Shown here one piece after another: positions 35,712 to 57,952 of a stretch of 64,000 bases of DNA. The position numbers and the translations under genes are program-made. The notes beneath the pieces were generated by a model. The model saw nothing but the letters and a program-made list of their open reading frames with translations, did not search any database and had not been told where the DNA came from. Source of the stretch: Clostridiales bacterium (lineage in GTDB: Bacteria > Bacillota > Desulfotomaculia > Desulfotomaculales > VENG01). Position 1 is the first letter of the stretch. Each line of letters starts with the position of its first letter. The DNA lies in contig JAIPEW010000010.1 in the NCBI GenBank assembly GCA_021736985.1, positions 1 through 64,000 on the forward strand. Reading direction: 5' to 3'.

Positions 35712-35840
35712 AAAAACAACCCCTTTTTAAAACATTTCAGGTTATAACTTCAATACATTGGAATTTTTTCCTTCCCAATAAGTTGGTGTCACCAACTTAT
35801 GATAAAAATGTAATTAGATTTTTATGAAAGGATGGTAGTA

Positions 35841-37013
35841 ATGCTGATATTAGATAAGCCATATGTTTCAAAGTTTCTAGAAGATACAATTTTAGAATTA
35901 GACTTACCTGTTTTGAAGAATAAAGCTGTAAAAGAATTTCACATAAGTAATAATATTAATTTTTTAGAAAGTGAGGAGTTTATTGATAAAATCAAAAGAA
36001 AACAACAACCATTGATTTATAGCAATTCGGAAAATCCAATTAACTGGATAACAAACAACCTATCATTTATGGGTATAACTGAAAAAATTAATATTTTTAA
36101 GGATAAGGTTAAATTTCGCAGGTTATTACAGAATATGTATCCTAATTTTTATTATAAAGAAGTCAATTTAGATGATTTAGAAAAAATAGATATAAATGAA
36201 ATAAAAATGCCTTTTATTATTAAGCCAACAATAGGTTTTTTTAGTATGGGGGTTCATAAGGTTAGCAGCCTTTCAGAATGGAAGGATGTGATAAATGAAA
36301 TAAAAAAAGAAATGAATAATATCACAGATAATTATCCTATGGAAGTTATAAATATAAATAATTTTATTATAGAAGAAAATGTAGAAGGTAAAGAATATGC
36401 TGTTGACGTTTATTTTGATAACAAAAACAATCCAGTAATCTTAAATATTTTAGAACATATTTTTTCTTCAGAAAAAGATGTAAGTGATCGAGTCTATATA
36501 ACTTCTAAAAAAATAATAAAAGAATATTACAATCTTTTTTATAATTTCTTATTAAAAATGGGTGAATTAATCAATTTGGAAAGATTTCCAATGCATGTTG
36601 AGTTTAGGGTTGATAAGGATGGAAACATAATCCCAATAGAAATAAATCCAATGAGGTTTGCGGGTTGGTGTGCAACTGATATAGCTTATTATGCCTATGG
36701 GATAAATGTATATGAATATTTTTTTCAGCAGAGAAAACCTGATTGGGAAAAAATTCTTAAAAATAAAAAAGAAAAGATTTATAGTATTGTTGTAGCAGAT
36801 TTACCTAAAGATATTGATTTCGATAATATTGAAGAAGTTGATTACGATAAATTTATATCATATTTTGAAAATCCCCTGGAAGTGAGAAAAATAGATTATA
36901 TGAAGTATGGTGTTTTTGCTTTTTTGTTTGCTGAAACTAGTTATGGAAATTGGGAAGAAATAGAAGGAATATTAAAATCAGACTTAAAAGAATATTTGAA
37001 GATTAAAAATTGA
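35841..37013 (+). CDS. Orphan ATP-grasp enzyme
   Basis: About 390 residues. ATP-grasp features seen: FIIKPTIGFFSMGVHKV (nucleotide-binding lysine and Gly loop), IEENVEGKEYAVDVYF, and the metal-binding VEFRVDKDGNIIPIEINPMRFAG. Such ligases join a carboxylate to an amine or thiol via an acyl phosphate (peptide or amino-acid ligases, BL00235/CarB-like). The gene is AT-rich relative to its neighbours and stands alone, suggesting acquisition. ATG 35841 preferred (AAAGG upstream). Substrate unknown. Confidence 0.75.
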   Translation: MLILDKPYVSKFLEDTILELDLPVLKNKAVKEFHISNNINFLESEEFIDKIKRKQQPLIYSNSENPINWITNNLSFMGITEKINIFKDKVKFRRLLQNMYPNFYYKEVNLDDLEKIDINEIKMPFIIKPTIGFFSMGVHKVSSLSEWKDVINEIKKEMNNITDNYPMEVININNFIIEENVEGKEYAVDVYFDNKNNPVILNILEHIFSSEKDVSDRVYITSKKIIKEYYNLFYNFLLKMGELINLERFPMHVEFRVDKDGNIIPIEINPMRFAGWCATDIAYYAYGINVYEYFFQQRKPDWEKILKNKKEKIYSIVVADLPKDIDFDNIEEVDYDKFISYFENPLEVRKIDYMKYGVFAFLFAETSYGNWEEIEGILKSDLKEYLKIKN

Positions 37014-38564: not shown

Positions 38565-41213
38565 ATGGATACCAAAGTATTATCGTTAACGAATAAAAGT
38601 ACCTTGGAATTTGCGCTATTAAAGACCAAACTCAATATACCTCATACTCGCCTGTCAGTTGTATCTCGGCCGCGTTTATTAAAGGAACTTGACGAAGGTT
38701 TTAGTAAAAAGTTAACTGTAATTGCTGCTCCGGCAGGTTATGGTAAAAGCACTCTGGCGGGAGAATGGGCTAACAAAGGAGGGGGGCCTGTATCTTGGGT
38801 TTCATTAGATTCAGGTGATAATGATCCCTACCGGTTTTGGAGTTATATAACTGCTTCTTTAGAGCAAGTTAGTCCGGATATGTTAAGTCGGGTTAAGAGT
38901 ACTTTGCATTTAATTAATCAAGCACCTGAAGCGCTAATTACTATTTTGGTTAATGATTTATGTAATGTTTCGCAAGATTTTTGCCTGGTACTAGATAATT
39001 ACCATTCTATCATTAATGATTTTATTCATAACAGCCTTTATTTTTTGATAAAATACATGCCTTCCAGTATGCATATTCTAATTATTGGTCGCACAAAGCC
39101 CCCTTTTTCCCTGTCCAGGTTTTTGATTAACCAGGATTTAAAAATATTAAGTTTCAAAGAATTAAAATTTAACACAGATGAAATATCTAAATTTTTTAAA
39201 CAAAAAGATGTTCACCTGAGTGTAGAAGACATAAATAAATTTGCGGTTAGTACCGAAGGCTGGCCGGCCGGCATGCAGTTAGCCGCTTATTCTTTACATA
39301 ATAACCAGAATAAACCTGGTAATATGGTTAATTTAAACGGGAATGATTACCATATTTCTTCTTATTTTGCCGAAGAGGCACTCAATATTTGGCCCGAAGA
39401 TATAAAGACATTTTTGCTGCAAACATCAGTGTTAGAACAACTAACATGGAAATTGTGTAATGCAGTAACCGGGAGAACTGACAGTCAGGATGTACTGCAG
39501 AAACTGGCAGAAAATAGCAGTTTCTTAATAGCATTAGATTATGAAGAAAAGTGGTTTCGTTATCACCATCTTTTCCTGGCTTTCTTGCGCGCTCGTTTAT
39601 CGGCAGAAAAAAAATATAATATAGCAATATTACACAGGTTAGCCGGGGAGTGGTACGAGAATAACGGGTGTATACCGCAAGCAATAGATCATTTTTTTAA
39701 AAGTAACGATTATATTAGATGTTCATACTTGATTAAGAATTACTGGCTGCAGTTTCTAAAGGTAAGAGGTATGAAAACATTGTTAGAGCTGTTTGAAGCT
39801 CTGCCGGCAACTATTATTGAGAAAAATGTGGAATTTATTGTACTCCATGCCTGGACATGGGTTTTATCCGATGATCAGCCTTTTTTATATAGAATGAATA
39901 TGGCCAATAAGAGACTGGATAAAGCCGAGGAACTGTGCAGAGAAGAGAGTAAAAATAATTTGCCGGAAACAGAACGCTGCAGGTTATTGGGTGAGATTGC
40001 CCTGGCTCGTGCTAAAACCAGTTCACCTAATATACGCGAAATGGCAGCTTATATAAGAGAGGCCTACCATAATCTTCCCGGGGGAAGTGCTTTAGTAAGG
40101 CCTGAAATACAAATAAACCTGGGGCTGCCCATGCTGTTGAGGACCAGGTATTTACAGCAAAACGCCGCTGAATTGCAGCAGGCTGTATCTTGTGTGCGGG
40201 ATATGCAGTTGATGTTGGATAAAATAGCCGGAGGCAGCCTAGTGGGATGGAGTTCCGGAGTTTATGGAGAGTTAGCCTATGAATTTAATCACCTGGAAGA
40301 AGCAACTCGTTTACTGCTGAGAAGCATAAGAGAAGCAGAAAGAGCAGGAGAGATTGGTATTGTAATTCCAGGGTTACTTAACCTGGCCCGAATCAAGCGT
40401 GCCCGGGGTATGGTGCAAGAAGCTTTTGAATTAACTGCGGCAGCAGAAAAACAGGCAAGAGAAAATAAACTTCTATTCTGGCTGCCTGTCATAGACTCTT
40501 TAAGAGCAAGGATTTGTATGGAAACGGGGTATAAAGAATATATATACCAGTGGAAGAAAACATATCACTTTGATATTTACGATAATCTCAGCGAAAATAT
40601 AGAATTTCAACTAATTACGCTGGCCCGGGTTCTTATTTTTGAAGGAAATTTAGACAGGGCGCTGTTCTTGCTGGAACGTCTTTTGGATTTTGCAGAAGAT
40701 GAAAAACGTATGCTAAGTAAGATAGAAATATTAAATTTACAGGCGATTGTTTACCATGAGAAGGGGAAAATTGAAAAAGCCGTGAAGGTTTTAAAACGTT
40801 CACTGGCAATAGGAGAAAAGGACGGCTGTATGCGCAGTTTTATTGATGAAGGAAGGGCGATGGCCGACTTGTTTGATAGTTATGCTGTGCAGCAGGATAA
40901 AACAAATCAAAGCAGTGAGGATAGAGACTCTTTCCCTTACGTGAGAGATCTGATTAATCTTACCAGGGATTTTGTTTCTACTATAAATCTTGTTTCCGGG
41001 GAAAAAGATTCTCAGACAACGGAAATGTTAACTGAAAGGGAAATTGAAGTGCTGCAGCTGTTAGCTGAAGGCTTAAACAACAGAGAAGTTGCTCAGAGGT
41101 TAATTTTATCGCAAAACACGGTTAAGAGCCATATCGCTAATATATACAGTAAACTGATGGTGAATAATCGCGCCCAGGCCATACAAAAAGGACGAGAAAT
41201 GGGTATTATTTAA
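38565..41213 (+). CDS. MalT-like LuxR-family transcriptional activator
   Basis: 882 residues. The N-terminal STAND-type ATPase has Walker A AAPAGYGKSTLAGEWA (about 50-65), CLVLDNYH as Walker B and a winged-helix linker. A long TPR-like helical array (about 400-790) follows, then a C-terminal LuxR helix-turn-helix (LTEREIEVLQLLAEGLNNRE, then NTVKSHIANIYSKL). MalT-type proteins are activated by ATP and an inducer. A terminator separates it from the sensor-transporter gene, so it is likely the locus activator made from its own transcript. That role is inferred from position. Confidence 0.88.
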   Translation: MDTKVLSLTNKSTLEFALLKTKLNIPHTRLSVVSRPRLLKELDEGFSKKLTVIAAPAGYGKSTLAGEWANKGGGPVSWVSLDSGDNDPYRFWSYITASLEQVSPDMLSRVKSTLHLINQAPEALITILVNDLCNVSQDFCLVLDNYHSIINDFIHNSLYFLIKYMPSSMHILIIGRTKPPFSLSRFLINQDLKILSFKELKFNTDEISKFFKQKDVHLSVEDINKFAVSTEGWPAGMQLAAYSLHNNQNKPGNMVNLNGNDYHISSYFAEEALNIWPEDIKTFLLQTSVLEQLTWKLCNAVTGRTDSQDVLQKLAENSSFLIALDYEEKWFRYHHLFLAFLRARLSAEKKYNIAILHRLAGEWYENNGCIPQAIDHFFKSNDYIRCSYLIKNYWLQFLKVRGMKTLLELFEALPATIIEKNVEFIVLHAWTWVLSDDQPFLYRMNMANKRLDKAEELCREESKNNLPETERCRLLGEIALARAKTSSPNIREMAAYIREAYHNLPGGSALVRPEIQINLGLPMLLRTRYLQQNAAELQQAVSCVRDMQLMLDKIAGGSLVGWSSGVYGELAYEFNHLEEATRLLLRSIREAERAGEIGIVIPGLLNLARIKRARGMVQEAFELTAAAEKQARENKLLFWLPVIDSLRARICMETGYKEYIYQWKKTYHFDIYDNLSENIEFQLITLARVLIFEGNLDRALFLLERLLDFAEDEKRMLSKIEILNLQAIVYHEKGKIEKAVKVLKRSLAIGEKDGCMRSFIDEGRAMADLFDSYAVQQDKTNQSSEDRDSFPYVRDLINLTRDFVSTINLVSGEKDSQTTEMLTEREIEVLQLLAEGLNNREVAQRLILSQNTVKSHIANIYSKLMVNNRAQAIQKGREMGII

Positions 41214-41233
41214 GTTATTTTTCCGGCTGTAGA

Positions 41234-41265
41234 AACAGTGCGCTAACTGCGTACTGTTTTTTTTT
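41234..41265 (+). terminator. Intrinsic terminator
   Basis: AACAGTGCGC pairs with GCGTACTGTT (one G-T), 5-nt loop, followed by seven more Ts. Ends the MalT-like regulator transcript. Confidence 0.88.
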
Positions 41266-41396
41266 GCACTTTAGAGTGAATTTAGTACTTTTTTTAGTAC
41301 TTTCGGGTGATAACATCATTTTTTTAATAAGCTAAAATAATAATTGAGTAAATAGGTATTAAAACGACAGATGAAATGAATTAGGGGAATGATGTA

Positions 41397-43709
41397 ATGC
41401 ACAAAGAAAAGGCAAGCAGCAAAATATTATTGCTGGCAGTGCTCCTGCTGGTAGTGATTATGGCTTTTACCGGTATCTTAAATTACATGACATTTGCAGA
41501 TAGTTATAATAAATCTCTTGTAAATACTTATTCGGTGGCGGGCAATGAACTGGTCAGAAAAATCGAATATGCTCTCAAATATGGAAAGTCCATTGATAAT
41601 TTTTACGGTATGAGTGATACCTTGAACGAGTTAAAGGTAATTGTTGATGAGGTTGAGCAGGTAAATATAATATCTCCTGACGGTAAAGTTTTATATGACT
41701 TAGACGGTTTTGCAGCAAATAAATATGTGCCTGAAAAATTAATAAAAACAGCAGTTTTTGAACAGGGAACTATAAGTGATAATTGCAGTTACCAGTCCCA
41801 TGCAGGAAAGCATCATATATTTTTAAAAATTTCTAAACGTGATTCCGGTCATGCGGCAGCCCTGGAAATGGTCTTTCCCGGGGATGTTTTTATGAATCTT
41901 AATAATAATTATACAAAACAATTAGCCGCATATGCTGCAGGGCTTGTGTTATTAGCCCTGGTTTTATTATACATAATTTTATTCAGGACCGAACTTTTAA
42001 CCGGGGATAACAGGGTTAACAGGAAAAGGATTTTAATCACTCTTGTTGCGGTTTTAGGTTCGGTTCAGCTGTTATATTGCGGTATTAACTATTATCTATT
42101 GAAAGGTGTCTACGGGGACCTAGCCCTGCAAAGCAAAAGCTTTATAGAGAATACGGTAGCCCAAAATATAGAGGGTGTTTACCAGAAGGGTATCAGCCTG
42201 GAAGATGTGAACGGCGTAAAAGAATACCTGGGAAAAATCGAGGCCGGGCTGCCGATGGTGAAAAAGGTAAGTGTTACAGAACCTGGATCAGTTGAAGGTA
42301 GTGCTGCCAATTCTATTGGTTCCCGGGGAGGCACTTCAGTCAATGCCAGAATTTCGGCAGTTTATATCGACCGGTTGATGTTTAGAATTTTATTGGACAT
42401 GCTGACTGTCTGGGTCATTTCTTTCTTTTTCATGATTGAGCTTACCCTGCTGGGGGTTATTATATTAAGCCGGCAAAGGGCCCGGCAAGATCAGCATTAT
42501 GCCGCCAGGGAAATTTATCATGCTCCAGGGTTAATCCGGGGATTAACATTTATTGTTAACATCTGTGTTTTTTTATCCATAACATTTGTCCCCATTGTTA
42601 TGCAGAATTTATACCAGCCTATCCCGGGATTGCCACGGGATGTGGTACTGGGGTTGCCTATTTCCGCTGAAATGCTGGGTGGAATTATGGCTATTGTACT
42701 GGCCGGGGGATTAATAGATAAAAAAGGCTGGCGAACCATTTTTTATACCGGGGCCCTGTTGTTGATGGCGGGAAATTTATTTTCCGGAACAGCTTCTAAC
42801 GCCGCTCTCTTTATATTTTCCCGGGCCACAGCGGGACTGGGAATTGGATTTATATTAATGACTTTACGCAGTTTGGCGGTTTCTTTGCCCGAAAAAAATA
42901 TTGCTATTGCAGAATTTTCGGCAGGTTCCATAGCCGGGTTGAATTGCGGGGCGGTTATCGGAGGGATGCTGGCCGACAGAATAGGTTATCATGCAGTTTT
43001 TTATTTATCTGCTGTCATGGTTACTTTTGTTTTTGTTTATGTTTACAAGTTAATGGCAGGTTTGGCTATTGAGCACAGGGCAACCAGCGAAATACCGGCG
43101 TGGAATAAGCTTGCCAATTTTATATCCGATAAGAATGCACTTGTATTTTTATTATTAATATTTATTCCCTTTTTTGTAGCCGGGGCATTTATGGATTATT
43201 ACTTTCCTTTATTTGCTAAAACAAACAGCCTGACCCAGAGTGATATAAGCCGGGCTTTTTTGTTGAATGGTTTGTGTGTAATTTATCTCGGCCCTGTTTT
43301 GACCAGGTATGCGACCCGTTACCTGGGAGATAAAAAGGGCATGGTAATTTCTTTATTTATAGTTGTTTGTGCACTGGCTGCTTTTACTCTTTGGGGTACT
43401 ATTCCAGCGGCTTTTGTTACTCTCATTTTACTTGGGATTGCCGAGGGTTTTGGAGTGGCTGCACTGACAAGTTATTTTTTAAATTTAGGATCTGTACGGG
43501 ATCTGGAAATTAACAAAGCTATTGCTTATTTCAGCGTGATGGTCAATGCCAGCAGGATGGCCGGGCCCATTATCTTCGGTGTTGCTCTATCTCTTGGGAT
43601 ACGACTGGGGATGGGGTTAATAACCGGGGGGCTGTTAGCCTTGCTGATAGCATTTATATTTATTTCCAGGTTTAAACCGGGGTTAGAAGACGGGCATAAA
43701 AACTATTAG
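41397..43709 (+). CDS. MFS transporter fused to an extracytoplasmic sensor module
   Basis: 770 residues. Residues 1-365 have a signal-anchor helix, an extracytoplasmic domain with a PAS/CACHE-like strand (VEQVNIISPDGKVLYDLDG), membrane helices (about 180-200 and 215-235), a second extracytoplasmic segment (about 238-325) and another helix. Residues about 380-765 form a 12-helix major facilitator domain (GGLIDKKGWRTIFYTGALLL, RATAGLGIGFILMTLR). A sensor fused to a carrier is unusual. First gene after the terminator and probably the start of the long operon. Substrate unknown. Confidence 0.8.
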   Translation: MHKEKASSKILLLAVLLLVVIMAFTGILNYMTFADSYNKSLVNTYSVAGNELVRKIEYALKYGKSIDNFYGMSDTLNELKVIVDEVEQVNIISPDGKVLYDLDGFAANKYVPEKLIKTAVFEQGTISDNCSYQSHAGKHHIFLKISKRDSGHAAALEMVFPGDVFMNLNNNYTKQLAAYAAGLVLLALVLLYIILFRTELLTGDNRVNRKRILITLVAVLGSVQLLYCGINYYLLKGVYGDLALQSKSFIENTVAQNIEGVYQKGISLEDVNGVKEYLGKIEAGLPMVKKVSVTEPGSVEGSAANSIGSRGGTSVNARISAVYIDRLMFRILLDMLTVWVISFFFMIELTLLGVIILSRQRARQDQHYAAREIYHAPGLIRGLTFIVNICVFLSITFVPIVMQNLYQPIPGLPRDVVLGLPISAEMLGGIMAIVLAGGLIDKKGWRTIFYTGALLLMAGNLFSGTASNAALFIFSRATAGLGIGFILMTLRSLAVSLPEKNIAIAEFSAGSIAGLNCGAVIGGMLADRIGYHAVFYLSAVMVTFVFVYVYKLMAGLAIEHRATSEIPAWNKLANFISDKNALVFLLLIFIPFFVAGAFMDYYFPLFAKTNSLTQSDISRAFLLNGLCVIYLGPVLTRYATRYLGDKKGMVISLFIVVCALAAFTLWGTIPAAFVTLILLGIAEGFGVAALTSYFLNLGSVRDLEINKAIAYFSVMVNASRMAGPIIFGVALSLGIRLGMGLITGGLLALLIAFIFISRFKPGLEDGHKNY

Positions 43710-43731
43710 AAGGGGAAATGAGGTTATTGGT

Positions 43732-44880
43732 ATGATTAAGATCTCAAGAATCATTTTTATATTTATACTGCCGTTATTTTTGCTAACTGGATGTTTTGGT
43801 AATGATCTGGGTAAACAAAGGGAAATGCAGGCAGGGAAAGGGGACAGTATCATTATCGGGGTTCCTGTTCCCTATGATTTTGCAAAGGATAATACCGACT
43901 TTTTAAATGGATTAAAGTTAGCCCTTGAAGACATCAATTCCCACGGAGGCGTAAACGGCAAGAAAATTAAGCTGGAAATCGCTGACGACAGGGGAGTTTT
44001 TAAAGATGCAGTAGATACAGCCCAGGATTTTTCCGAGAATACCCGCATGACGGCAGTAATCGGGCACTGGTTTTCGGATATCTGTATTCCGGTAGCTTCC
44101 ATATATGAAGAAGCAGGCATGCCAGTAATAGTTCCCACCGTATCTAACCCTGAATTAATGGAAAAAGATTATCATTACATATTTCAAAATTTACCCAGTG
44201 ACAAAAAAGTGGCTGAACAGATGTGCTTATACGCGAAAAAACAGGAATATAACAACATGGTTATTTATTACGAAGACAGCTTGTACGGCCGAAATCTAGC
44301 AAAAGCTTTTGAGGAAGAAGCCCAAAACAGCGGTATAGAAATCATCGATAGAAGATCAGGTATGGTAAGTAAAAATGGTTTTAAAAGAGCCTATTATAAA
44401 TGGAATGCCTTAAATTTTGACGCTGTCTTTCTGGCCCTGAATATGCCTGAAGGAGCTCAGTTTATAAAACAATTCAGAAAACTTGATCCCGGTACGCCCA
44501 TTTTGTCCGGTGACGGCCTGGATGTAAGCAACTTAATAAAAGTCCTGGGAGAAGATGCAGAAAATCTTGTAATTTCGACTATATATAATCCCTGCGGCGG
44601 GGAATCGAAGTTGAAGGAATTTAAAAAACATTACAGGCAGAAATATAAAGAAGAACCAGATGTATGGGCAATCCAGGGTTATGATTCTCTACAGCTAATT
44701 GCCAGGGCAATTAAAAAAACGGGCAGTTGTTCACCGGTAGAGTTGACTGCTTATCTGCGGAATACGAAAGCAATGAAGCTGGTTTCAGGAAATGTCACTT
44801 TTAACGATGACGGAGAAATCCAGGGAAGAAAAATATATAAGAAAAAAGTGGTAAATAGGGAGTTTGAATATATAGATTGA
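43732..44880 (+). CDS. Orphan periplasmic-binding lipoprotein (Leu/Ile/Val-binding type)
   Basis: 382 residues, lipobox LLTGC (Cys21). The mature part is a type I two-lobed binding protein (IIIGVPVPYDFAKDNTDFLN, GLKLALEDINSHGGVNGKKI, VIGHWFSDICIPVASIYEEA), like branched-chain amino acid receptors. No permease or ATPase for import adjoins, so it may be a signal receptor working with the sensor-transporter or carry an extracellular ligand. It lies 22 bp after the transporter gene. Confidence 0.83.
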   Translation: MIKISRIIFIFILPLFLLTGCFGNDLGKQREMQAGKGDSIIIGVPVPYDFAKDNTDFLNGLKLALEDINSHGGVNGKKIKLEIADDRGVFKDAVDTAQDFSENTRMTAVIGHWFSDICIPVASIYEEAGMPVIVPTVSNPELMEKDYHYIFQNLPSDKKVAEQMCLYAKKQEYNNMVIYYEDSLYGRNLAKAFEEEAQNSGIEIIDRRSGMVSKNGFKRAYYKWNALNFDAVFLALNMPEGAQFIKQFRKLDPGTPILSGDGLDVSNLIKVLGEDAENLVISTIYNPCGGESKLKEFKKHYRQKYKEEPDVWAIQGYDSLQLIARAIKKTGSCSPVELTAYLRNTKAMKLVSGNVTFNDDGEIQGRKIYKKKVVNREFEYID

Positions 44881-44905
44881 TGATATCGCGGGGGAGGTTA
44901 TGACA

Positions 44906-46315
44906 ATGTCTGACAACGGAGTTTTCCGAAAAGTATCCCTGGATAGATTGTCTTCACCGGAAGAATTGGACCAGCGATTAACGGTGACATCACCGGTAGG
45001 CTGGCTCGCCTGTACAGCTGTTGCAATGTTGATTCTGGGAGGTCTTATCTGGGGGATTTTCGGGAAAATACCTGACAAAGCCGTGGGCCAGGGAATTATT
45101 ATTTCCAGCGGGGGTATTGCCAACGTTATCCATCATGCTAGCGGCCAGGTCACTGATGTAAGTGCTCAGGAGGGTGATTACGTAGAAAAGGGTGACGTAA
45201 TCGCCAGGGTGAAGCAAACCGGACTTATCGAAGATATAAACAGACTTAAAGAGGATCGGGAAGTGATAAGAAACCTTAACCCGGATGACCCCCGAATAGA
45301 CAGCGAGATGCTCAATTTCAAGGTGTACGGAGAAATAATAAATATTGCTCAGAGCATTAAGCAGGCCCGGAACAACCTGGAGGTAACTAAAGCAAGTTTA
45401 AGTACTGCTAAAAAGGAAAGGGAAATAAAGCTTGAGCAGGCTAACTGGGAAGTGCAGCAGGCCAGGCTTGAACTTGAGGAAGACCGGGAAGATTACGAGT
45501 CATATAAATATTTATTTGATAAAGGTGCCGTATCAGAACGGGACTTTAAAGAAGCAGAGCGCAGTTATATTTCGAGTAAGGAATACCTGCAAATCAAACA
45601 AGAGAACTTGCAGAACCTGCAATCAGAAGCCAATACATTTTCCCATGCACAGGTTCTTAAAGCAGAGAAAAACCTGCAAATTTTAAAACAGCAGTTTAAA
45701 GATACACTTCTATTAAAAGAAAGGGAACTCCAAAAACTTATTGCTAGAAACCAGGAACAGTTATTTAATAACAGTGAAATTGCAGCCAGTTTTTCCGGCC
45801 GCGTCCTGGAACTGCAGGTTAATAAGGGAGATATGGTTAGAGCCGGCAGCAGTGTTTGCAGTATTGCCAGAGAGGAAAAAGAAGCTAAATCGTTGGAAGC
45901 AGTTCTATACGTACCGTTGGAAAAAGGGAAAAAAATATTACCCGGGACGGAGGTAAATATTTCTCCTACTACTGTTAAAAAAGAAGAAGATGGTTTCATG
46001 CGGGGAAATGTGAAATCAGTTTCCAAATATCCAGCCAGCGCCCGGGGGATGATGCTCACTCTGGGTAACCAGGAACTGGTGAAGCGATTGTCAGGCAAAG
46101 GTGCGCCCATTGAAGTAAAGGTGGAATTAATCAGGGATAACAGTACGGTTAGCAAGTATAAGTGGTCTACCCCCGACGGGCCCGATATGGTAATCGACAG
46201 CGGCACGTTATGTTTAGGAGAAGTTAAAGTAAGACAGCAAAGGCCAATCAGCATGGTTATCCCGTATATAAAGAAAGTTCTGCCTATCTACTTTAGCGCT
46301 CCAGTATTGAGGTGA
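44906..46315 (+). CDS. NHLM-type export adaptor (HlyD family)
   Basis: About 469 residues. One N-terminal membrane helix (about 31-53) is followed by a lipoyl-like half motif (GIANVIHHASGQVTDVSAQEGDYVEKGDVIARV). A long coiled coil (about 105-280) precedes the second half motif and a beta domain. It matches the HlyD-like secretion protein of NHLM peptide-export systems. Start ATG 44906 has better spacing to GGGGGAGG than 44900. Overlaps the next gene at 46312-46315. Confidence 0.88.
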   Translation: MSDNGVFRKVSLDRLSSPEELDQRLTVTSPVGWLACTAVAMLILGGLIWGIFGKIPDKAVGQGIIISSGGIANVIHHASGQVTDVSAQEGDYVEKGDVIARVKQTGLIEDINRLKEDREVIRNLNPDDPRIDSEMLNFKVYGEIINIAQSIKQARNNLEVTKASLSTAKKEREIKLEQANWEVQQARLELEEDREDYESYKYLFDKGAVSERDFKEAERSYISSKEYLQIKQENLQNLQSEANTFSHAQVLKAEKNLQILKQQFKDTLLLKERELQKLIARNQEQLFNNSEIAASFSGRVLELQVNKGDMVRAGSSVCSIAREEKEAKSLEAVLYVPLEKGKKILPGTEVNISPTTVKKEEDGFMRGNVKSVSKYPASARGMMLTLGNQELVKRLSGKGAPIEVKVELIRDNSTVSKYKWSTPDGPDMVIDSGTLCLGEVKVRQQRPISMVIPYIKKVLPIYFSAPVLR

Positions 46316-46320
46316 TTATT

Positions 46321-48483: not shown

Positions 48484-48502
48484 AGTGAAAGGGGGTTGAG
48501 CC

Positions 48503-51187: not shown

Positions 51188-51208
51188 TAAATATTGAGGT
51201 GTGGTTTA

Positions 51209-52330
51209 TTGGAAGAACAGCTATCGTTTCTACTTGAGAATTATTTTAAGCATACCTGTGTTAATTCATGGCAGGAAATTCCTCTTCCGGATGAACTCTT
51301 TGTGGGAGATTGGGAGGATTATATAGATGAAGTTCACCGGGAAGGGGCCCTGGCTGCACTGCAAAAAAGATTGGTGCAGTTAAAGTTCCCAGTTAAAGAA
51401 GGAATGAGTGAAAACTCTAATTACCAGCTGGCTGCCAGGAAAGGAGCAGATACACTCTTTATGCCGGAAGCAGCCGGGGTTGAGCTGGAAGAGCCTGATA
51501 AGCTTGAAGTATATCTTTACCAAACATTTGCCGGTAAATTACCTGTAATCCAGGTAGGGAACAGGAATGATTTTGAAACCCTGGTTCGCGTGTTTTCCTA
51601 CCGGAATGAACCGGTAAAAGTATCCCCTTCCATGGGTGCTTGTATGATAAAGGGTTACAGCAATTGGGACAGGGTTAAAAAGTATAAAGAAAAATGGTAC
51701 AGGGATAACGGTAATATAGAAAACCTGGATGTCTTATGGAAATTTGAGTTTAAGAAGATGAAATCCCAAACAGAGTTATATCAAGATAAATTTTTAATTA
51801 TCAGCGATAAGGAATACAGCAATATCCCGGCCGGGATGCTGGGTATTTCCGGGGAAGAGTGGCGGCAGTTATCCCTGGTTATTCGCCGGGAACATGAAGC
51901 TGCACATTACTGCACGCTGAGATTATTTGGCTCAGCACGCAATCATTTACTGGATGAGCTGATTGCTGACTTCATGGGTATAATTGCTGCTGCAGGCAGG
52001 TACAGGGCACACTGGTTTCTCTGTTTTATGGGCCTGGAAGATTACCCTGTTTTTCGCCCGGGGGGAAGGTTGGTTAACTACATAAAAAACAAGGAATTAT
52101 CGGCTGAGGCTTTTGAAGAATTAAAGCTTTATGTTAAAAATGCGGCCCACAATATGGAGTCTTTCAGTGAGAAGTATGCCCCTGTTTTTTATAAGGGTGA
52201 GGGAAAATACAAGATGCTGTTGGCCATGTCAAAAACGAATTTAATTGATATAGCATCCGAATATATGGAGGAAAAATTCCTGGAGAATGGATTAAAAGCC
52301 TTCTTGAGAGAAGAGGTGCGAAGATGGTAA
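51209..52330 (+). CDS. HExxH-containing protein of the peptide locus
   Basis: 373 residues, no signal peptide or membrane helix. Around residue 229 it has REHEAAHYCTLRLFGSARNH followed by LLDELIADFMG. An HExxH (His229-Glu230-x-x-His233) with acidic residues about 16-20 residues later looks like a zinc metalloprotease centre. The rest is not recognised. TTG 51209 lies 9 nt after GAGGTG. It sits between the exporter and the sigma factor, overlapping the latter by 7 bp. It could be a dedicated peptidase or modification enzyme. Confidence 0.65.
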   Translation: MEEQLSFLLENYFKHTCVNSWQEIPLPDELFVGDWEDYIDEVHREGALAALQKRLVQLKFPVKEGMSENSNYQLAARKGADTLFMPEAAGVELEEPDKLEVYLYQTFAGKLPVIQVGNRNDFETLVRVFSYRNEPVKVSPSMGACMIKGYSNWDRVKKYKEKWYRDNGNIENLDVLWKFEFKKMKSQTELYQDKFLIISDKEYSNIPAGMLGISGEEWRQLSLVIRREHEAAHYCTLRLFGSARNHLLDELIADFMGIIAAAGRYRAHWFLCFMGLEDYPVFRPGGRLVNYIKNKELSAEAFEELKLYVKNAAHNMESFSEKYAPVFYKGEGKYKMLLAMSKTNLIDIASEYMEEKFLENGLKAFLREEVRRW

Positions 52331-52857
52331 TCGTCAATGTTCCTGCAAAAAAATTAAAATCTGAGATATTATCGGAAATATATAATAAATACTTTCCCAT
52401 GCTTTATAAATACACGCTTTATAAAGTTGGTGCCCCTGAAGTAGCAGAAGATCTAGTCAGCGAAGTTTTTGAAAAAGTGCTGGCCAATTATTATACATAT
52501 AACCCGGATAAGGGCAAATTTAGCACGTGGTTGTTTACTATAGCTAATAATACAATACTTAATTACCATAAAAAAAATGACCGCGATAAGCAGCTCATTG
52601 ATATTGAAAAAATGCAATCAAAGTACCGGCTGGAGGATTTAATAATTGACCGGGAATTGAAGCAATTTCTCTTAACGGCAATCATGTACCTGGATGAGCG
52701 GCAGAGAAATATAATTGCCCTTAAATTCGGTGCCTGCCTGGCAAACCGTGAAATTGCCCGGGTAATGGATTTGACGGAAAGTAACGTAGGAACGATTTTA
52801 TACCGGTCCTTAAAAAAATTAAAGGAGATTTTAAAGGAACAAGGGGTTATTTATTAA
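52324..52857 (+). CDS. Sigma-70-family (ECF-like) RNA polymerase sigma factor
   Basis: 177 residues with sigma region 2 (YFPMLYKYTLYKVGAPEVAED..SEVFEKVLANY...FSTWLFTIANNTILNYHKK) and region 4 (LDERQRNIIALKFGACLANRE, RVMDLTESNVGTILYRSLKKL). It lacks regions 1 and 3, as ECF-type factors do. ATG after GAGGTG. It is co-transcribed with export genes upstream and the small GG-motif proteins downstream, and so probably drives the locus. Its promoter motif was not identified. Confidence 0.9.
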   Translation: MVIVNVPAKKLKSEILSEIYNKYFPMLYKYTLYKVGAPEVAEDLVSEVFEKVLANYYTYNPDKGKFSTWLFTIANNTILNYHKKNDRDKQLIDIEKMQSKYRLEDLIIDRELKQFLLTAIMYLDERQRNIIALKFGACLANREIARVMDLTESNVGTILYRSLKKLKEILKEQGVIY

Positions 52858-52874
52858 GATTTGAGGTGCAGCAA

Positions 52875-53153
52875 ATGAGTGAAAAACATTCCTTGGAAAC
52901 ATTTATTTCATATATAGATAAAGTTGTATCCGGGGAGTCAATTAGTCCTTCCGAGTGCGAGGATTATAATGAAGAAAACAAAGAATTATTATTCCTTGCC
53001 CAACTGTTGGCAAAAGCGGATTATACCCCGGAAAGTAAGGGGGGGCCAGAAAAGATGGAAGGTGAGATGGAAGATGATGAATTGGATATGGTTGCCGGTG
53101 GGATTAAATTAGACGATATATTCGATGAAAAAGGAAAAAAGAATGGTACATAG
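52875..53153 (+). CDS. GG-motif small protein: candidate peptide precursor or cleavable sigma regulator
   Basis: 92 residues from ATG 52875 (AGGTG upstream); a GTG at 52866 is in frame. The N-terminal part (LETFISYIDKVVSGESISP...KELLFLAQLLAKADYTPES) resembles small anti-sigma-like proteins found after sigma genes. The C-terminus has the acidic stretch and double-glycine site DDELDMVAGG (Gly-Gly at 75-76), which would release IKLDDIFDEKGKKNGT (16 residues, no Cys). It directly follows the sigma gene by 17 bp. Precursor, regulator, or both is undecided. Confidence 0.7.
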   Translation: MSEKHSLETFISYIDKVVSGESISPSECEDYNEENKELLFLAQLLAKADYTPESKGGPEKMEGEMEDDELDMVAGGIKLDDIFDEKGKKNGT

Positions 53154-53324
53154 TTGATTAACTAATATTTTAAGAGAAAAGAGTGTGATACTTTTTCATT
53201 TTGATTGTATAAAAGGGTAGTAGATTAATTGTTTAAATTCTTGTATGGAGTAAGCTGGAGGTGAACATACTCGAGTTTAAATGTTAATTTAAAAAAATAT
53301 TACTAAGAAAGGAGCAAAAGTGTA

Positions 53325-53585
53325 ATGGAAAAAAAAGTTGAACAATTGTTAGAGAAGTTGAAGGCAGATGGAGAACTGGCGAAAAAGTTATTCAGCCAGG
53401 ACACTGCTGAAGGTGCGCAGGCAGTATTAAAGGAAAAGGGATTTGATCTTAGTGTGGATGAAATCACAAAGTTAAAAGACACTATCACTAAAGAACTGGA
53501 AAAAGGTGCAGAAGGCGAGCTTTCTGATGATGCCCTGGAAAACGTTGCTGGCGGACATTCAGTCAATATAGATATTAACTGGTAA
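53325..53585 (+). CDS. Nif11-type leader peptide, RiPP precursor
   Basis: 86 residues. The helical leader (MEKKVEQLLEKLKADGELAK..LF...EGAQAVLKEKGFDLS.DEI) matches Nif11-type precursors and ends GELSDDALENVAGG (Gly-Gly at 76-77). The remaining core is HSVNIDINW, nine residues with no Cys, so lanthionine or sactionine rings are excluded. ATG follows GAAAGGAG. A 171-bp gap separates it from the previous small gene, and a strong hairpin follows. Confidence 0.9.
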   Translation: MEKKVEQLLEKLKADGELAKKLFSQDTAEGAQAVLKEKGFDLSVDEITKLKDTITKELEKGAEGELSDDALENVAGGHSVNIDINW

Positions 53586-53610
53586 GATATGAAATAAAAG
53601 TATTATGTCG

Positions 53611-53652
53611 CTCGGGCCCGCCGTATTCTTTGTAAAATACGGCGGGCCCGAG
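53611..53652 (+). ncRNA. Strong intercistronic hairpin after the precursor gene
   Basis: Perfect 17-bp GC-rich stem (53611-53627 with 53636-53652) and 8-nt loop, without a T tract after it. It sits between the precursor and the modification genes. It probably blocks 3' decay or partly terminates, giving more precursor than enzyme message. That effect is inferred. Confidence 0.7.
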
Positions 53653-53704
53653 ACTTATAAAAAAAATAATGAAACTTGGACATGAGATATGGAGGTGATG
53701 CTGC

Positions 53705-54763
53705 TTGGAAGGTAATATGATGAGTTTTTTAGATAAATTTTCTCCCGGCATCCCACCGGAAATACTTGATAATCAATCATACCTTGAGTTAAATAAAATG
53801 GTGTCTTTGTTCAAAGATTTTGTATCGAGACATTATATTTTAGAGACATATCTTGACAGAGATGAGCAGCAGGCAGACTTTTCTTTCTGCATCCGGGCGT
53901 TAGAAAGAGATTTCCTGGTTCGTGCATTTAAAGACCTCCGATTTCAATATCTGGCCGGGGATGAAGTATGGGGGCGGGTTATTAATTTTGTCAATTGCTG
54001 GTCAGCAAAAAATACTCTTGAACATAAACATGTTAATAATATCTGGTTTGAGATGGATTTCGCAGAATATGAAAAAGATATTCCCCAACCGTGTTTATTT
54101 TTTGATGCCTCCCAGGTAAAAAACAGCAGAGTAAGCAATGAGTGGTTATTTGAAACGCTGAAAAAACTGCTTGACAGCAACCTGGTGGATTCGCTGCGGG
54201 ATGAAATAAAAAATGTTATCAGAAATTTGCCGCCCGGGACAGGATTATTTCAAGTGGGAACAATGCTGGCCAGGACTGAAGACAGGGTGAGGATTTTTAC
54301 CCATCAATTAACCAGGGAACAAATAACCGGGTATCTAAAAAATATTGGCTGGCCAGGGGATTCAAGGAAAATAAATAATGTTTTTAATTTTATAGATAAT
54401 TACAGCGACGGTAATTATATTGTCGATTTTGATGTAACCCGGGAAGGCATATCCGAAAAAAGCGGCATTAATTTTGGGTTAAAAAATAATAAAAACCTGT
54501 CCTTTTTCCTGGAAGAGCTGGCTAAACATAATCTGTGCAATGACTTAAAAAAAAGAGGTGTACTTTCATGGAAAGGCAGCAGCTGCCGGTTTTTAGGGCA
54601 AGATTACGGACAAACGGCTCTTTTGAAAAATATCTCGCATTTCAAAGTTGCTTACTTGCCAGGTGAAGGGATTAGAATAAAGGCCTATCTCAAGGTAAAA
54701 GGAGTATATTTAAAAGAATTATTTAAAAATATCGCCGGCAAAGAAACAGCTTTAAACTTTTGA
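53705..54763 (+). CDS. Unrecognised 352-residue protein of the peptide locus
   Basis: Soluble, no membrane segment or signal peptide. Notable stretches are NTLEHKHVNNIWFEMDFAEY, LPPGTGLFQVGTMLARTEDR, IGWPGDSRKINNVFNFIDNY and a C-terminal ISHFKVAYLPGEGIRIKAYL. I do not recognise the family. TTG start 9 nt after GGAGGTGA. Its place between the precursor and the GNAT/radical SAM genes suggests a modification enzyme. There is no Rossmann, YcaO, LanM or prenyltransferase motif I can see. Confidence 0.8.
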   Translation: MEGNMMSFLDKFSPGIPPEILDNQSYLELNKMVSLFKDFVSRHYILETYLDRDEQQADFSFCIRALERDFLVRAFKDLRFQYLAGDEVWGRVINFVNCWSAKNTLEHKHVNNIWFEMDFAEYEKDIPQPCLFFDASQVKNSRVSNEWLFETLKKLLDSNLVDSLRDEIKNVIRNLPPGTGLFQVGTMLARTEDRVRIFTHQLTREQITGYLKNIGWPGDSRKINNVFNFIDNYSDGNYIVDFDVTREGISEKSGINFGLKNNKNLSFFLEELAKHNLCNDLKKRGVLSWKGSSCRFLGQDYGQTALLKNISHFKVAYLPGEGIRIKAYLKVKGVYLKELFKNIAGKETALNF

Positions 54764-54778
54764 GGTGATTATAAAAGA

Positions 54779-55522
54779 ATGATAGAGAAGGGAAAAATAA
54801 TAAATCAACAGGATTTAAAAATTTATTCCTATATAATCAGAGTTCTTGATGTTAATGATATACCTGGAGTTATTGATTTACAGGATTATATAATGAGTTT
54901 AATGAAAAATAAAAGTTTTTGCGTGATCTTATCTTCGGAGGAGCACTACGAAATAATGAGCGTTAGCGGGGAGACTATAGGGCTGTTTATCGGAGACAAG
55001 TTGTATGCGGTATGTTCAATTTTGTTTCCCGGGTACCGTGAGGATAATATGGCCCGGAAACTTAACTTTAGCAGTGAAGAATTGCTGCAAGTGGCGCAGC
55101 TGGAATTATCCATGGTTCATCCCAATTTTCGGGGAAACGATTTGCAAAGAAGAATGGCGGATATGCTGGCCCGGCAGGTGAAAAAGAAAAAGAATTACAG
55201 GTACTTGTTTACAACAGTATCACCATACAACTATCCCAGTATTAAAACGGTTACTTCCATGGGGCTGAACATTACTAAATTATGCAAGATGTATTATCAA
55301 TGGGATAGATATGTTGTGTATAAAGATATTGTTAACCCTTTGAGTTTAGATAAAAATAGTACAATTAATGTATCCAGCACTTTTTTCGAAAAGCAGCAGG
55401 AGTTATTAAACAAAGAATACTTTGGATTTTCACAGTTTAAAGATAAAGATGGCATAAAAATAATGTATGCCCCCAAAATGAGCAGCTGCCAGATTATATA
55501 TAACGAAGGAGAAATGGAATGA
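54779..55522 (+). CDS. GNAT-family N-acyltransferase
   Basis: 247 residues with the GNAT core at about 110-190: QLELSMVHPNFRGNDLQRRM gives the acyl-CoA-binding FRGNDLQ loop (usual RxxGxG/A, here G-N-D), preceded by the beta strand and followed by YLFTTVSPYNYPSIKTVTSMG. It could acylate a Lys or an N-terminal amine of the peptide, as GNAT maturases do in other RiPPs. ATG after GAGGTGAT; its stop overlaps the radical SAM start. Confidence 0.82.
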   Translation: MIEKGKIINQQDLKIYSYIIRVLDVNDIPGVIDLQDYIMSLMKNKSFCVILSSEEHYEIMSVSGETIGLFIGDKLYAVCSILFPGYREDNMARKLNFSSEELLQVAQLELSMVHPNFRGNDLQRRMADMLARQVKKKKNYRYLFTTVSPYNYPSIKTVTSMGLNITKLCKMYYQWDRYVVYKDIVNPLSLDKNSTINVSSTFFEKQQELLNKEYFGFSQFKDKDGIKIMYAPKMSSCQIIYNEGEME

Positions 55523-56751
55523 GAAGAATAATCAGGGCTGAACCGGGATACTTAGCCTGTTATTACCTGGATAAAAGAAAAAAAAGTACTATTGCCGGTA
55601 AGAATCTGGAATTGTTGGAACAATGGTTAACAACAGGAGAAGAAAATGATGCAATCGTTCAACTAAAGAACAAGGGTGTTGTAAATACCGGGCATTTCAA
55701 AGATGAGAAAGAAAATCTAATGGAATTAATAACCCGGTGCAGGCAAGTTGAGGCGCCTTTGCGTTCACTCAAAGTTCCAGAGTCGATGAACATAGAATTA
55801 ACAGACCGCTGCCCGTTAAGATGCCCGCAGTGTTATTGCCATCTAAATGAAGGCAAAGACATAAAAAAGGAAACAGCATTAAAATATATAGAAGAAGCGG
55901 CCCGCTTGCAAATTCCTTATATTAATATGTGCGGGGGGGAAACCATGGTTTACCCCTATCTTACAGATTTAATAGAATTTATAAGCAGTAAAGGGCTACA
56001 TTCAGCCATAGCCATTAGCGGCTGGGGATTTAACCAGGATAAGCTGAAAGAATTAAAAAGAGCTGGAATTGACGAGATTTTTGTTTCTTTAAACGGTTCC
56101 ACGGAAGAAGTTAATTCTCTATCACGGGACGGCTATCATAAGGCGATTAATACTTTACAAGTATTACAAGCTGATCAGGAAGTTAATTATTATATCAACT
56201 GGGTGGCCAGAAATGATAATGTCGCTGATTTCCCCCGGCTTGTAAACCTGGCCCAAAATTACGGGGTAAAGCGCGTATATATACTGACTTGCAAGCCTGA
56301 TGCATCTAATGTAATCCAGGAATCATTAAGTAAAGATAATTTCCTTTTTCTTGCTGATTTTATAAAAAATTTTGATAGCCAGGAAATAAGTCTCATGGTG
56401 GAATCATGCTATTCTCCTCTTCGTGCTTATATTTATAACTATTACTTCTTCAATCGCAATACCGGTGAAAATATGGGGTGCGGTGCCGGGCGTAAAGGAA
56501 TAACGGTGGATTTGGATGGTAACTTTATACCTTGCAATCACCTGGTGCACCCTGAAAAGTTTGACAGTATTGATGAATACTGGTGGAATTCAAAGATCCT
56601 GGATAATCTCCGTAGATATGAGGAACATAAGGAGGAACCGTGCCGCAGCTGCCATTTGACTAATAATTGCCGGTCATGTCGAGCCGTGGGAGAAAAGGTT
56701 TATCACAACCTTTACAGCGGCCATAAACATTGTCACGTTCCATATTTGTAA
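55519..56751 (+). CDS. Radical SAM/SPASM peptide maturase
   Basis: 410 residues. N-terminal 80 residues resemble a PqqD-like leader-binding module (RRE). The radical SAM motif is CPLRCPQC (Cys98, 102, 105) and MCGGETMVYP the glycine motif. A C-terminal SPASM-type Cys set follows (MGCGAGRKGI, FIPCNHLV, CRSCHLTNNCRSCRA, CHVPYL). SPASM enzymes usually modify ribosomal peptides. The four-base overlap with the GNAT gene shows tight coupling. Confidence 0.93.
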   Translation: MRRIIRAEPGYLACYYLDKRKKSTIAGKNLELLEQWLTTGEENDAIVQLKNKGVVNTGHFKDEKENLMELITRCRQVEAPLRSLKVPESMNIELTDRCPLRCPQCYCHLNEGKDIKKETALKYIEEAARLQIPYINMCGGETMVYPYLTDLIEFISSKGLHSAIAISGWGFNQDKLKELKRAGIDEIFVSLNGSTEEVNSLSRDGYHKAINTLQVLQADQEVNYYINWVARNDNVADFPRLVNLAQNYGVKRVYILTCKPDASNVIQESLSKDNFLFLADFIKNFDSQEISLMVESCYSPLRAYIYNYYFFNRNTGENMGCGAGRKGITVDLDGNFIPCNHLVHPEKFDSIDEYWWNSKILDNLRRYEEHKEEPCRSCHLTNNCRSCRAVGEKVYHNLYSGHKHCHVPYL

Positions 56752-56785
56752 AATTTAATTTTTGCCGTAAAGAAGGGGTGACCCT

Positions 56786-57952
56786 GTGCTGAGAAAAATA
56801 ATAATAATCTCTTGTATTGTAATTGGGTTGTTAGCTATAAATTTGAGCGGGTTAATTGCCCTTAGTCCTTCTTCTGCTTCAGGCAGCAGCGATAATCTTA
56901 CCCCTGTTACCAGGTCAGACGGCACCAGGTGGCAAATAGGTTATTGTGAAAGCGAAAATTTTATTACTTATACTAAAACACTGGTGGGAATTGTCAATGC
57001 CTTAAGAGAAAGGGGTTGGATTACTGACCTGGATGGATTCGACAGTGTAAGTGAAAGCAGCGACAGCAGGGAAATCTGGCGATGGCTGGCAAACCGCAAT
57101 GTAAGTCCTTATATTGAATTTGTTGATGAAGCCTTTTACAACTTAAAAAATGCCGGTAGCAGTGAAGATGTTGTTAATCGCTTTAATGCACAGAATGATC
57201 TGGATATTATGATGGTAATGGGAACGCAGGCGGGCGTAGTGTTAGGCAGTAATGATAATGATACTGATATCTTTGTTTTTGCTGCTTCCAATGCGGTGCG
57301 TTCAGGGATCATTGATTCTGTGGAAGATTCAGGACGGGAGCACGTATGGGCCCATATGGACCCTACCCGCTTTGAGCGGCAGTTAAACGTGTTTTACGAT
57401 ATAATAAATTTTAAAAAACTGGGAATGGTTTACGAGGATTCCGATATAGCAAGGGTTTACTCGGCAGTAAGTGAAGTTGAAAAACTTGCCGGGGAAAAAG
57501 GGTTTGAAATTGTTCGCTATTATGTAGATGAACCGCGAAGCCCGGAGGATTACCCGCGATATTACCGGGAAGTTCAGGAAGCATACGATAAGCTGGCAAC
57601 TTGCGTTGATGCCATGTTCGTTACCATTGCTTCGCTGGAAAGTAAAAAGCTGCCGCAGTTATTTACACCTTTTTATGAAAAAAATGTACCTGTATTTTCT
57701 CAACTGGGGAATGTAGAAGTTCAACACGGGGCATTGATGACGGTATCTGTAATGGATGAATTAAACATAGGGCGTTTCGGAGCTGATAAAATAATTAAAT
57801 CTCTTAAGGGGGCTAACCCCTGGGAATTAACACAAAAATTTCAATGTGCGCCGAGAATCGTATTTAATTCAAAAGTTGCTCAAAGGATAGATTTTAAAAT
57901 TCCTTTTAAATTAATTATTGTGACTGATGAGGTTTATGGTACAATTCCCTAA
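56786..57952 (+). CDS. Second orphan ABC-type binding protein
   Basis: 388 residues: signal peptide/anchor helix (about 5-27, no lipobox Cys), then a binding-protein fold of the ABC_sub_bind type (WQIGYCESENFITYTKTLVG, VMGTQAGVVLG, KKLGMVYEDSDIARVYS). Like the protein at 43732 it has no importer partners. GTG start after AAGGGGTGA, 34 bp after the radical SAM gene, so it is the likely last gene of the operon. Receptor or carrier role is inferred. Confidence 0.8.
   Translation: MLRKIIIISCIVIGLLAINLSGLIALSPSSASGSSDNLTPVTRSDGTRWQIGYCESENFITYTKTLVGIVNALRERGWITDLDGFDSVSESSDSREIWRWLANRNVSPYIEFVDEAFYNLKNAGSSEDVVNRFNAQNDLDIMMVMGTQAGVVLGSNDNDTDIFVFAASNAVRSGIIDSVEDSGREHVWAHMDPTRFERQLNVFYDIINFKKLGMVYEDSDIARVYSAVSEVEKLAGEKGFEIVRYYVDEPRSPEDYPRYYREVQEAYDKLATCVDAMFVTIASLESKKLPQLFTPFYEKNVPVFSQLGNVEVQHGALMTVSVMDELNIGRFGADKIIKSLKGANPWELTQKFQCAPRIVFNSKVAQRIDFKIPFKLIIVTDEVYGTIP

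Follow-up and report, generated by a model that had tools for sequence, protein, structure and literature searches.

A 64,000-nt stretch of DNA from a Clostridiales bacterium (GenBank assembly GCA_021736985.1, contig JAIPEW010000010.1, positions 1 to 64,000), here called the window, carries at 38565-57952 a run of 14 genes, all on the + strand. Judged by its genes and their order, this is a cluster for a ribosomally synthesized and post-translationally modified peptide (RiPP) with an NHLM exporter and a Nif11 precursor, in which a conserved chassis surrounds interchangeable modification genes. Our main interest is in an extracytoplasmic function (ECF) sigma factor of this chassis and the small protein encoded directly behind it, p95, a probable anti-sigma factor that ends in a leader-like double-glycine motif and a short tail. 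The reading frames lie where the initial annotation, made from the sequence alone, had placed them, and family scans gave the following assignments.

38565-41213, + strand: MalT-like LuxR regulator of 882 amino acids (TPR_MalT 139.9 bits, GerE 66.5 bits)
41397-43709, + strand: sensor-fused major facilitator superfamily (MFS) transporter, sMFS, of 770 amino acids (MFS_1 match at residues 385-694)
43732-44880, + strand: binding lipoprotein-like protein, Peripla_BP_6 (157.4 bits)
44900-46315, + strand: NHLM HlyD adaptor (TIGR03794, 354.3 bits against a cut-off of 156.2)
46312-48483, + strand: NHLM C39 peptidase/ATP-binding cassette exporter, ABC1 (TIGR03796, 1090.2 against 853.3 bits)
48503-51187, + strand: second NHLM ATP-binding cassette protein, ABC2 (TIGR03797, 947.6 against 709.4 bits)
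51194-52330, + strand: DUF7005 protein with HExxH and DExxxD motifs, a probable metalloprotease (PF22541, 432 bits)
52324-52857, + strand: ECF sigma factor (TIGR02937, 94.7 bits against a cut-off of 42.9)
52866-53153, + strand: p95, 95 amino acids, probable anti-sigma factor with a double-glycine leader motif (DELDMVAGG) and a 16-residue tail; its domain is common to transmembrane (TM)-type proteins behind ECF sigma genes
53187-53212, + strand: probable sigma-specific promoter GATAC-N13-TTGTATAA, from cross-cluster comparison
53325-53585, + strand: Nif11 precursor with the core HSVNIDINW after VAGG (TIGR03798, 39.6 against 32.3 bits; PF07862, 28.6 against 23.8 bits)
53611-53652, + strand: 17-bp hairpin in the 119-nt gap between the Nif11 precursor and p352 (energy z -7.07)
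53705-54763, + strand: p352, 352 amino acids, predicted ABBA-type prenyltransferase by fold matches of its model (pLDDT 82.9, pTM 0.85)
54779-55522, + strand: GNAT-like protein (weak Acetyltransf matches, under every cut-off; kept in the chassis)
55519-56751, + strand: radical SAM/SPASM enzyme, PqqE/MftC-like (Radical_SAM 62.8 and SPASM 25.5 bits; PqqE 98.9 bits, under the cut-off)
56786-57952, + strand: TrpX-like (ABC_sub_bind) binding protein (PF04392, 51.5 bits; TrpX model, 54.4 bits)

The gaps around the Nif11 gene are exactly 171 and 119 bp, as first described, and this gene is the sole Nif11 match in its own genome. Scanning the window for Rfam families and tRNAs gave no matches. The HExxH protein of the initial annotation proved to belong to a named but uncharacterised Pfam family, DUF7005. 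Similarly, the 352-residue protein that it had called unknown indeed has no sequence family, but its predicted fold is recognisable.

Gene maps built from searches with p352, sMFS and DUF7005 revealed a recurring order: sMFS, Peripla_BP_6 protein, HlyD adaptor, ABC1, ABC2, DUF7005, sigma factor, p95, modification genes, GNAT-like protein and TrpX-like protein, with DUF7005 placed after p95 in some relatives. Because this order is repeated across several genera and families, we believe that the cluster is more than a chance assembly. Both the conserved order and the cluster-specific promoter-like site ahead of the Nif11 unit (see below) fit the earlier proposal of one regulated RiPP system. DUF7005 is linked to NHLM exporters: of its 72 named loci, 49 include a match to ABC1 or ABC2, with many of the stretches truncated by contig ends. 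The exporter trio and the Nif11 leader, which exceed the curated cut-offs of TIGR03794, TIGR03796, TIGR03797 and TIGR03798, are those of known NHLM-exported Nif11/NHLP clusters; the sigma/p95 pair, the promoter-like site, DUF7005, sMFS and the binding proteins set the window apart from them.

The modification genes are what changes. A radical SAM enzyme, with or without p352 and a UPF0489 protein, is found in the window, G037 (L139), G139 (L151), L140, L142, L143 and G051 (L145). G021 and G023 encode two YcaO proteins, a B12-type radical SAM enzyme and a LanM-like protein, and G112 encodes other radical SAM enzymes, a p352-like protein, B12-type enzymes and a sulfotransferase-like protein. The map of G367 includes exporter, Nif11, p352 and radical SAM genes; sigma, p95 and DUF7005 do not appear in it. 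The UPF0489 protein, absent from the window, is among the modification genes of L014, L139, L140, L142, L143, L145 and L151.

The initial annotation had the product of the cluster sensed as well as made and exported. sMFS has a 385-residue N-terminal extension before its MFS domain that lacks a Pfam match, and the protein matches one PHROGs family, whose function is unknown; relatives occur in 15 of 398 genomes of the phylum at 1e-30, its own genome counted. The TrpX-like protein reached 54.4 of the 390 bits required for the TrpX equivalog, and is assigned to the ABC_sub_bind superfamily only. Family scans placed no permease gene next to either binding protein. Because sMFS and the TrpX-like protein, in some cases with the GNAT-like protein, also occur without NHLM or Nif11 genes, a RiPP-sensing role for them is unproven: in fetched stretches that lack NHLM genes they are found together with the GNAT-like protein in G405, G201 and G411 and without it in G256, G406 and G446, and an alanine racemase gene adjoins them in three of these (G411, G201 and G406). 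Such loci possibly form a module of their own, for transport or sensing related to amino acids. We give a little short of an even chance to the view that in the window, too, sMFS, the TrpX-like protein and the GNAT-like protein form a small-molecule module of this kind, which travels with the cluster and does no peptide sensing; against it, the three genes hold fixed positions in the RiPP chassis across families. The loci listed with this pairing of sMFS and TrpX-like genes, with NHLM genes absent nearby and GNAT variable, are L089, L090, L091, L092, L069 and L093, with alanine racemase beside the pair in L090, L091 and L092.

DUF7005 looks like a zinc metalloprotease by its conserved residues, since H234, E235, H238, D254, E255 and D259 are invariant in an alignment of 15 sequences. 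A PDB sequence search returned chance-level rows only, with no solved relative, and the open-access literature search on the family yielded nothing.

We then considered the sigma factor and p95. The sigma factor did not reach the BldN-family equivalog (129.7 against 206.45 bits), and p95 starts 8 bp behind its gene. Among the 72 DUF7005 loci, a sigma homologue was found in 24 and a p95-like domain in 16, and in all 16 the p95-like frame is directly behind the sigma gene. A profile of the p95 N-terminal part, searched in 113 genomes of the order at E 0.05, matched 24 places in 21 genomes; two matches (L125 and L128) lie inside long unrelated frames, and at 16 of the 22 credible places the locus of ~3 kb contains a sigma homologue, a fragment in one case (L122). 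With a broader profile, 18 places were found in 16 of the 398 phylum genomes, and 15 of the 16 loci examined (L207-L222) have the domain directly behind an ECF sigma homologue, the exception (L220) being a weak match in a long frame.

The domain is joined to different C-terminal parts. In eight loci (L212, L213, L214, L216-L219 and L221) the protein is TM-type, of ~290-366 amino acids, and a single strongly hydrophobic segment follows the shared domain; all four such proteins scanned (L120, which is the L213 place, L212, L214 and L219) end in DUF4367. In six others (L207, L209, L210, L211, L215 and L222) it takes the short form of p95, in which a leader-type motif is followed by a tail, and a protein of 207 amino acids in L208 has neither hydrophobic segment nor leader-type motif. 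When 18 wider stretches were inspected, NHLM exporter genes were present in six of nine leader-tailed loci (L225-L227 and L229-L231), in none of eight TM-type stretches (L232-L239) and not in L240.

Double-glycine leaders have consensus hydrophobic residues at -12, -7 and -4. The p95 motif, EMEDDELDMVAGG in the window, fits this pattern, and a 17-sequence alignment has VAGG or AAGG in 15 members, L155 and L160 having an alanine form. The tail, IKLDDIFDEKGKKNGT, is alike among close relatives (N-L-N/D, D-E-K) whichever modification enzymes are encoded alongside, be they radical SAM and p352, a YcaO pair and a LanM-like protein, or other radical SAM sets; in other leader-tailed forms it is unrelated, and in some Cys-rich. 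In L225, L226, L229, L230, L155, L158 and L160 the tail, which follows a GG or AA motif, contains two Cys pairs with zinc-ribbon-like spacing.

From its place behind the sigma gene and its architecture, p95 is quite likely an anti-sigma factor that inhibits its neighbour. We read the family as one sigma-partner domain whose sensing half would lie in the membrane in one kind and, in the kind next to RiPP genes, would be a cleavage motif resembling a leader. This resembles known sigma/anti-sigma pairs (PMC7406223), in which the anti-sigma gene directly follows the sigma gene and an N-terminal sigma-binding domain precedes a sensing part; in p95 the sensing part would instead be a RiPP double-glycine motif with a short tail. 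Sigma/anti-sigma pairs also occur in lantibiotic clusters. In Tt-TolB, a characterised Firmicute anti-sigma factor not used here, the sigma-binding part is residues 1-39 (PMC3397946).

Several observations weigh against this assignment. In eight DUF7005 loci a sigma homologue was found and a p95 domain was not, and six of the 22 credible places from the order search (L109, L116-L118, L121 and L124) have the domain without a sigma homologue in ~3 kb. The sigma gene and the p95-domain gene of L119 and L126 are ~480 bp apart, with a small gene between them; that of L119, seen in the wider stretch L230, is leader-type. p95 has no match in Pfam or among PDB sequences that would mark it as an anti-sigma factor, the PDB rows for its N-terminus being at chance level, and a PHROGs search with p95, p352 and DUF7005 gave nothing. 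The structure model of p95 is poor (pLDDT 70.9, pTM 0.46), and its full-length profile matches a Nif11 protein weakly (E 0.0053). The TM-type DUF4367 proteins to which the shared domain ties p95 are themselves uncharacterised, and searching the open-access literature for DUF4367 together with anti-sigma yielded nothing. Because some places lack a detected sigma gene, we slightly lowered our estimates both for p95 as an anti-sigma factor and for its coupling to the exporter.

What the sigma factor might read was approached by motif discovery in 16 stretches behind p95 or before chassis or precursor genes, with 30 shuffles that kept base composition only. One dyad was common to five of the 16 stretches, while the shuffles reached three at most. 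Searched as G[AC]TAC-N13-TTGTATAA in the 113 order genomes, it gave 27 sites in 23 genomes, and the reversed pattern gave 15. In the genomes with a close sigma/p95 pair (G000, G112, G021, G023, G026, G030, G037, G051, G059 and G099) all 13 sites are inside the cluster; the remaining 14 are in 13 other genomes, and G036, which has p95 and no close sigma gene, has none. The window site, GATAC-N13-TTGTATAA, is the sole exact match in its own genome. A Nif11 gene starts 112 nt behind it, and 55-306 nt behind all seven further sites followed (G021, one in G023, G026, G030 and three in G112). The site was also found just behind p95 in L140, L142, L143, L144 and L227, in stretches outside the discovery set; three loci (L138, L151 and L153) count against it, lacking the site even with one mismatch allowed. 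L145 has the site together with the exporter genes, the sigma factor and p95, but its DUF7005 frame is broken and it has no p352. Because the match taken within the window alone carries no significance (at up to one mismatch, 23 of 100 shuffles also contained a match), the weight of the site rests on the cross-cluster comparison. We conclude that it is a probable promoter of the cluster's own sigma factor ahead of the Nif11 gene. The hairpin at 53611-53652 may set the levels of precursor and enzymes apart.

From the genes, their order, the motif, the predicted fold and the tails, we infer how binding, modification, cleavage, release and export might fit together. The MalT-type regulator would probably drive the chassis. 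On the leader-bound precursor, the radical SAM enzyme and p352 would modify and prenylate the Trp, and the C39 exporter would cut after VAGG and export the product. The sigma factor, which the comparison suggests reads GATAC-N13-TTGTATAA before the precursor, would be held by p95 until the exporter engages or cuts the leader-like motif of p95. Once the exporter works, sigma would be freed and the precursor unit transcribed. In this proposal sigma is freed only with a working exporter, and the precursor and enzymes would therefore be made only then. As a whole, this model, in which a short Nif11-derived peptide is modified on or close to the C-terminal Trp and exported by NHLM proteins, its synthesis being gated by sigma and p95, stands, in our judgement, evenly poised between right and wrong.

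The release of sigma after p95 cleavage is the weakest link. Since the anti-sigma domain would remain in the cell once C39 had cut, freeing sigma would take one more step: the fragment would have to lose its affinity or be degraded, with DUF7005 as a candidate helper. FlgM ties sigma-28 to flagellar export and leaves the cell whole. That checkpoint is analogous in coupling an anti-sigma factor to an exporter, and differs in that the p95 domain would stay inside. Coupling of p95 to the exporter seems possible, though distinctly short of an even chance, and a new class of export-coupled anti-sigma factors, in which a cytosolic ECF anti-sigma domain is joined to a RiPP double-glycine motif and short tail and the exporter's C39 peptidase determines when sigma is freed and precursor made, is a tentative proposal.

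Alternatively, p95 could be a plain cytosolic anti-sigma factor whose GG motif only docks to the exporter or is a relic, with no control by cleavage. The established topology of C39 cleavage, which would keep the anti-sigma domain inside, favours this, as do three of the nine leader-tailed loci (L223, L224 and L228) with no NHLM exporter within 10 kb, loci that also weigh against the main model; each has a Nif11-like leader frame nearby. We consider it unlikely, given that the motif is kept throughout the alignment.

The initial annotation had counted two predicted cores, that of the Nif11 precursor and the tail of p95. This is not supported for p95, whose domain is common to TM-type anti-sigma-like proteins and whose gene directly follows the sigma gene. 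As a second precursor, p95 was accordingly lowered, its tail in close relatives staying constant beside quite different enzymes. In a variant, p95 would be a precursor of this sort or of a peptide pheromone, its anti-sigma likeness mere ancestry and the exported tail IKLDDIFDEKGKKNGT a signal that the binding proteins or sMFS perhaps detect; the canonical motif, the similar tails of close relatives and the NHLM exporter beside most leader-tailed forms speak for it, but with p95 immediately following sigma in all 16 DUF7005 loci that have it, its domain shared with TM-type proteins in the same place and unrelated, sometimes Cys-rich tails in other forms, we think it improbable.

The preferred reading, of p95 as an anti-sigma factor, leaves the Nif11 gene as the precursor. 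It combines a leader model over the cut-off, a VAGG motif and a short core, HSVNIDINW, that ends in Trp. We counted leader-type frames ending in Trp, taking one locus per genome group and a pattern that lets in chance frames (for example L197 and L205): with p352 they made up 24 of 47 (in 10 of the 18 groups having such frames), and without it 6 of 64 (in 5 of 37 groups, four of those five being chassis relatives). The G112 group was represented by L136, which has three precursors, none with a C-terminal Trp; in L017, of the same group, both precursors beside p352 do, and the count was left unadjusted.

The radical SAM homologue correlates better with the C-terminal Trp than p352 does. In a tally made by eye, with homologues defined by 40% identity or more, at least one Nif11 precursor ends in Trp in all nine loci that have both the homologue and a detectable precursor (the window, L139, L140, L142, L143, L145, L074, L132 and L184); no precursor was detected in L151 and L166, and the NHLP-type precursors of L140, L142, L143 and L145 do not end in Trp. 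Where p352 was present and the radical SAM homologue not found, precursors ended in Trp in L012, L017, L146 (contig ends), L195 and L205; no precursor was detected in L015 and L018, and seven loci that had no Trp-ending precursor (L013, L019, L020, L021, L159, L164 and L168) weigh against the main model. That p352 is the sole cause of the C-terminal Trp was an idea weakened by L184, L143 and L145. It is likely that the radical SAM enzyme acts on this Trp, or that p352 does, or that the two act on it one after the other. L184 (11636-13600), from an Oscillospiraceae metagenome-assembled genome, has five Nif11 precursors in a row, all ending in Trp, with DUF7005, TrpX-like and sMFS genes, a 41% radical SAM homologue and no p352 match. 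In L205, plasmid pAB510a of Azospirillum sp. B510, whose record carries no annotation, a p352-like gene accompanies several leader-type precursors ending in Trp.

The closest models for the radical SAM enzyme are PqqE and MftC, and its best PDB match is PqqE (6c8v). It is nevertheless far under both equivalog cut-offs (98.9 against 381.35 bits for PqqE; 83.6 against 265 bits for MftC), and differs from these systems in leader and C-terminal residue.

No credible match to p352 was found in Pfam, NCBIfam or PHROGs, a PDB sequence search returned chance-level rows only, and homologues are scarce, in 4 of the 398 phylum genomes at 1e-6, its own counted. A structure model built from ten sequences of its own or related loci reached pLDDT 82.9 and pTM 0.85. 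Its best Foldseek matches are aromatic prenyltransferases (IptA, E 6.3e-7), among 34 matches at 0.001 or better. VIA-align, used as a second look at Foldseek's own matches, gave CymD Z 17.9 over 294 residues (root-mean-square deviation 3.8), MpnD 17.2, IptA 16.3, PriB 16.2 and DMATS1 16.1. The top matches are largely tryptophan or indole prenyltransferases, the predicted model has the PT-barrel (ABBA) fold, and E47, R190 and R196 are invariant. p352 is probably a PRENYLTRANSFERASE and is predicted to be an ABBA-type prenyltransferase; that it prenylates the peptide is, on balance, the better supposition.

There is precedent for such chemistry. Because MppC has been published (PMC12715784), Trp prenylation on a Nif11 precursor is known: this ABBA enzyme, reported in 2025, prenylates Trp82 of its precursor and requires the leader. 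The MppC/MppE prenylated lanthipeptide pathway resembles the window in that an ABBA-type enzyme is expected to act on a Nif11-precursor Trp; the window differs in having a radical SAM enzyme, no LanM and Trp as the last residue. PalQ also prenylates the C-terminal Trp of an NHLP precursor, and the PalQ/PalX cluster (PMC10853753) shares a leader-type precursor with C-terminal Trp and a regulatory gene; PalQ has an isoprene-synthase fold, however, and p352 does not.

A relative of p352 is fused to a radical SAM enzyme in L132, and another to a 2-oxoglutarate-Fe(II) oxygenase in L012, beside LanM and Nif11 genes. These fusions gave the idea that p352 is a leader-recognition domain only, which the fold search demoted to a rival. 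As such it holds that p352 no longer prenylates and guides substrate for the radical SAM enzyme or oxygenase, as the fusions suggest; a common fold, its catalytic residues not superposed, does not establish function. With an active ABBA enzyme on a Nif11 precursor in MppC (PMC12715784), a core ending in Trp and mostly Trp or indole prenyltransferases among the top fold matches, we rate it a poor prospect.

The initial annotation knew of no described pathway with this gene set. None was found in the open-access papers searched, but most parts are of known kinds, with MppC (PMC12715784) as precedent. Each cluster part is of a known kind, and a leader-tailed anti-sigma factor did not turn up in the open-access papers searched. 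How RiPP synthesis and export are coordinated is little understood. In the window, the sigma factor, its candidate anti-sigma factor with an exporter cleavage motif and a matching promoter-like site all lie within ~900 bases, and the idea is therefore testable in vitro and in E. coli. If true, it would provide a new mode of sigma-factor control and a stringent switch for making the peptide, and it would caution against taking small GG proteins for precursors where they follow a sigma gene. The cluster also yields a predicted prenyltransferase family beside radical SAM enzymes on Trp-ending peptides.

A 62% identical copy of the MalT-like regulator adjoins the G112 cluster. Exact copies of AGTACTTTNGGGTGATA lie behind the MalT-like gene in the window (41213-41396) and in L017 (near 12670), the only two of 23 loci scanned to have it in exact form; it is a possible regulator site, whose weight, at two of 23 loci, we do not press. 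Upstream of the cluster, at 35832-37013 of the window, is a gene for an ATP-grasp_4 protein (211.6 bits).

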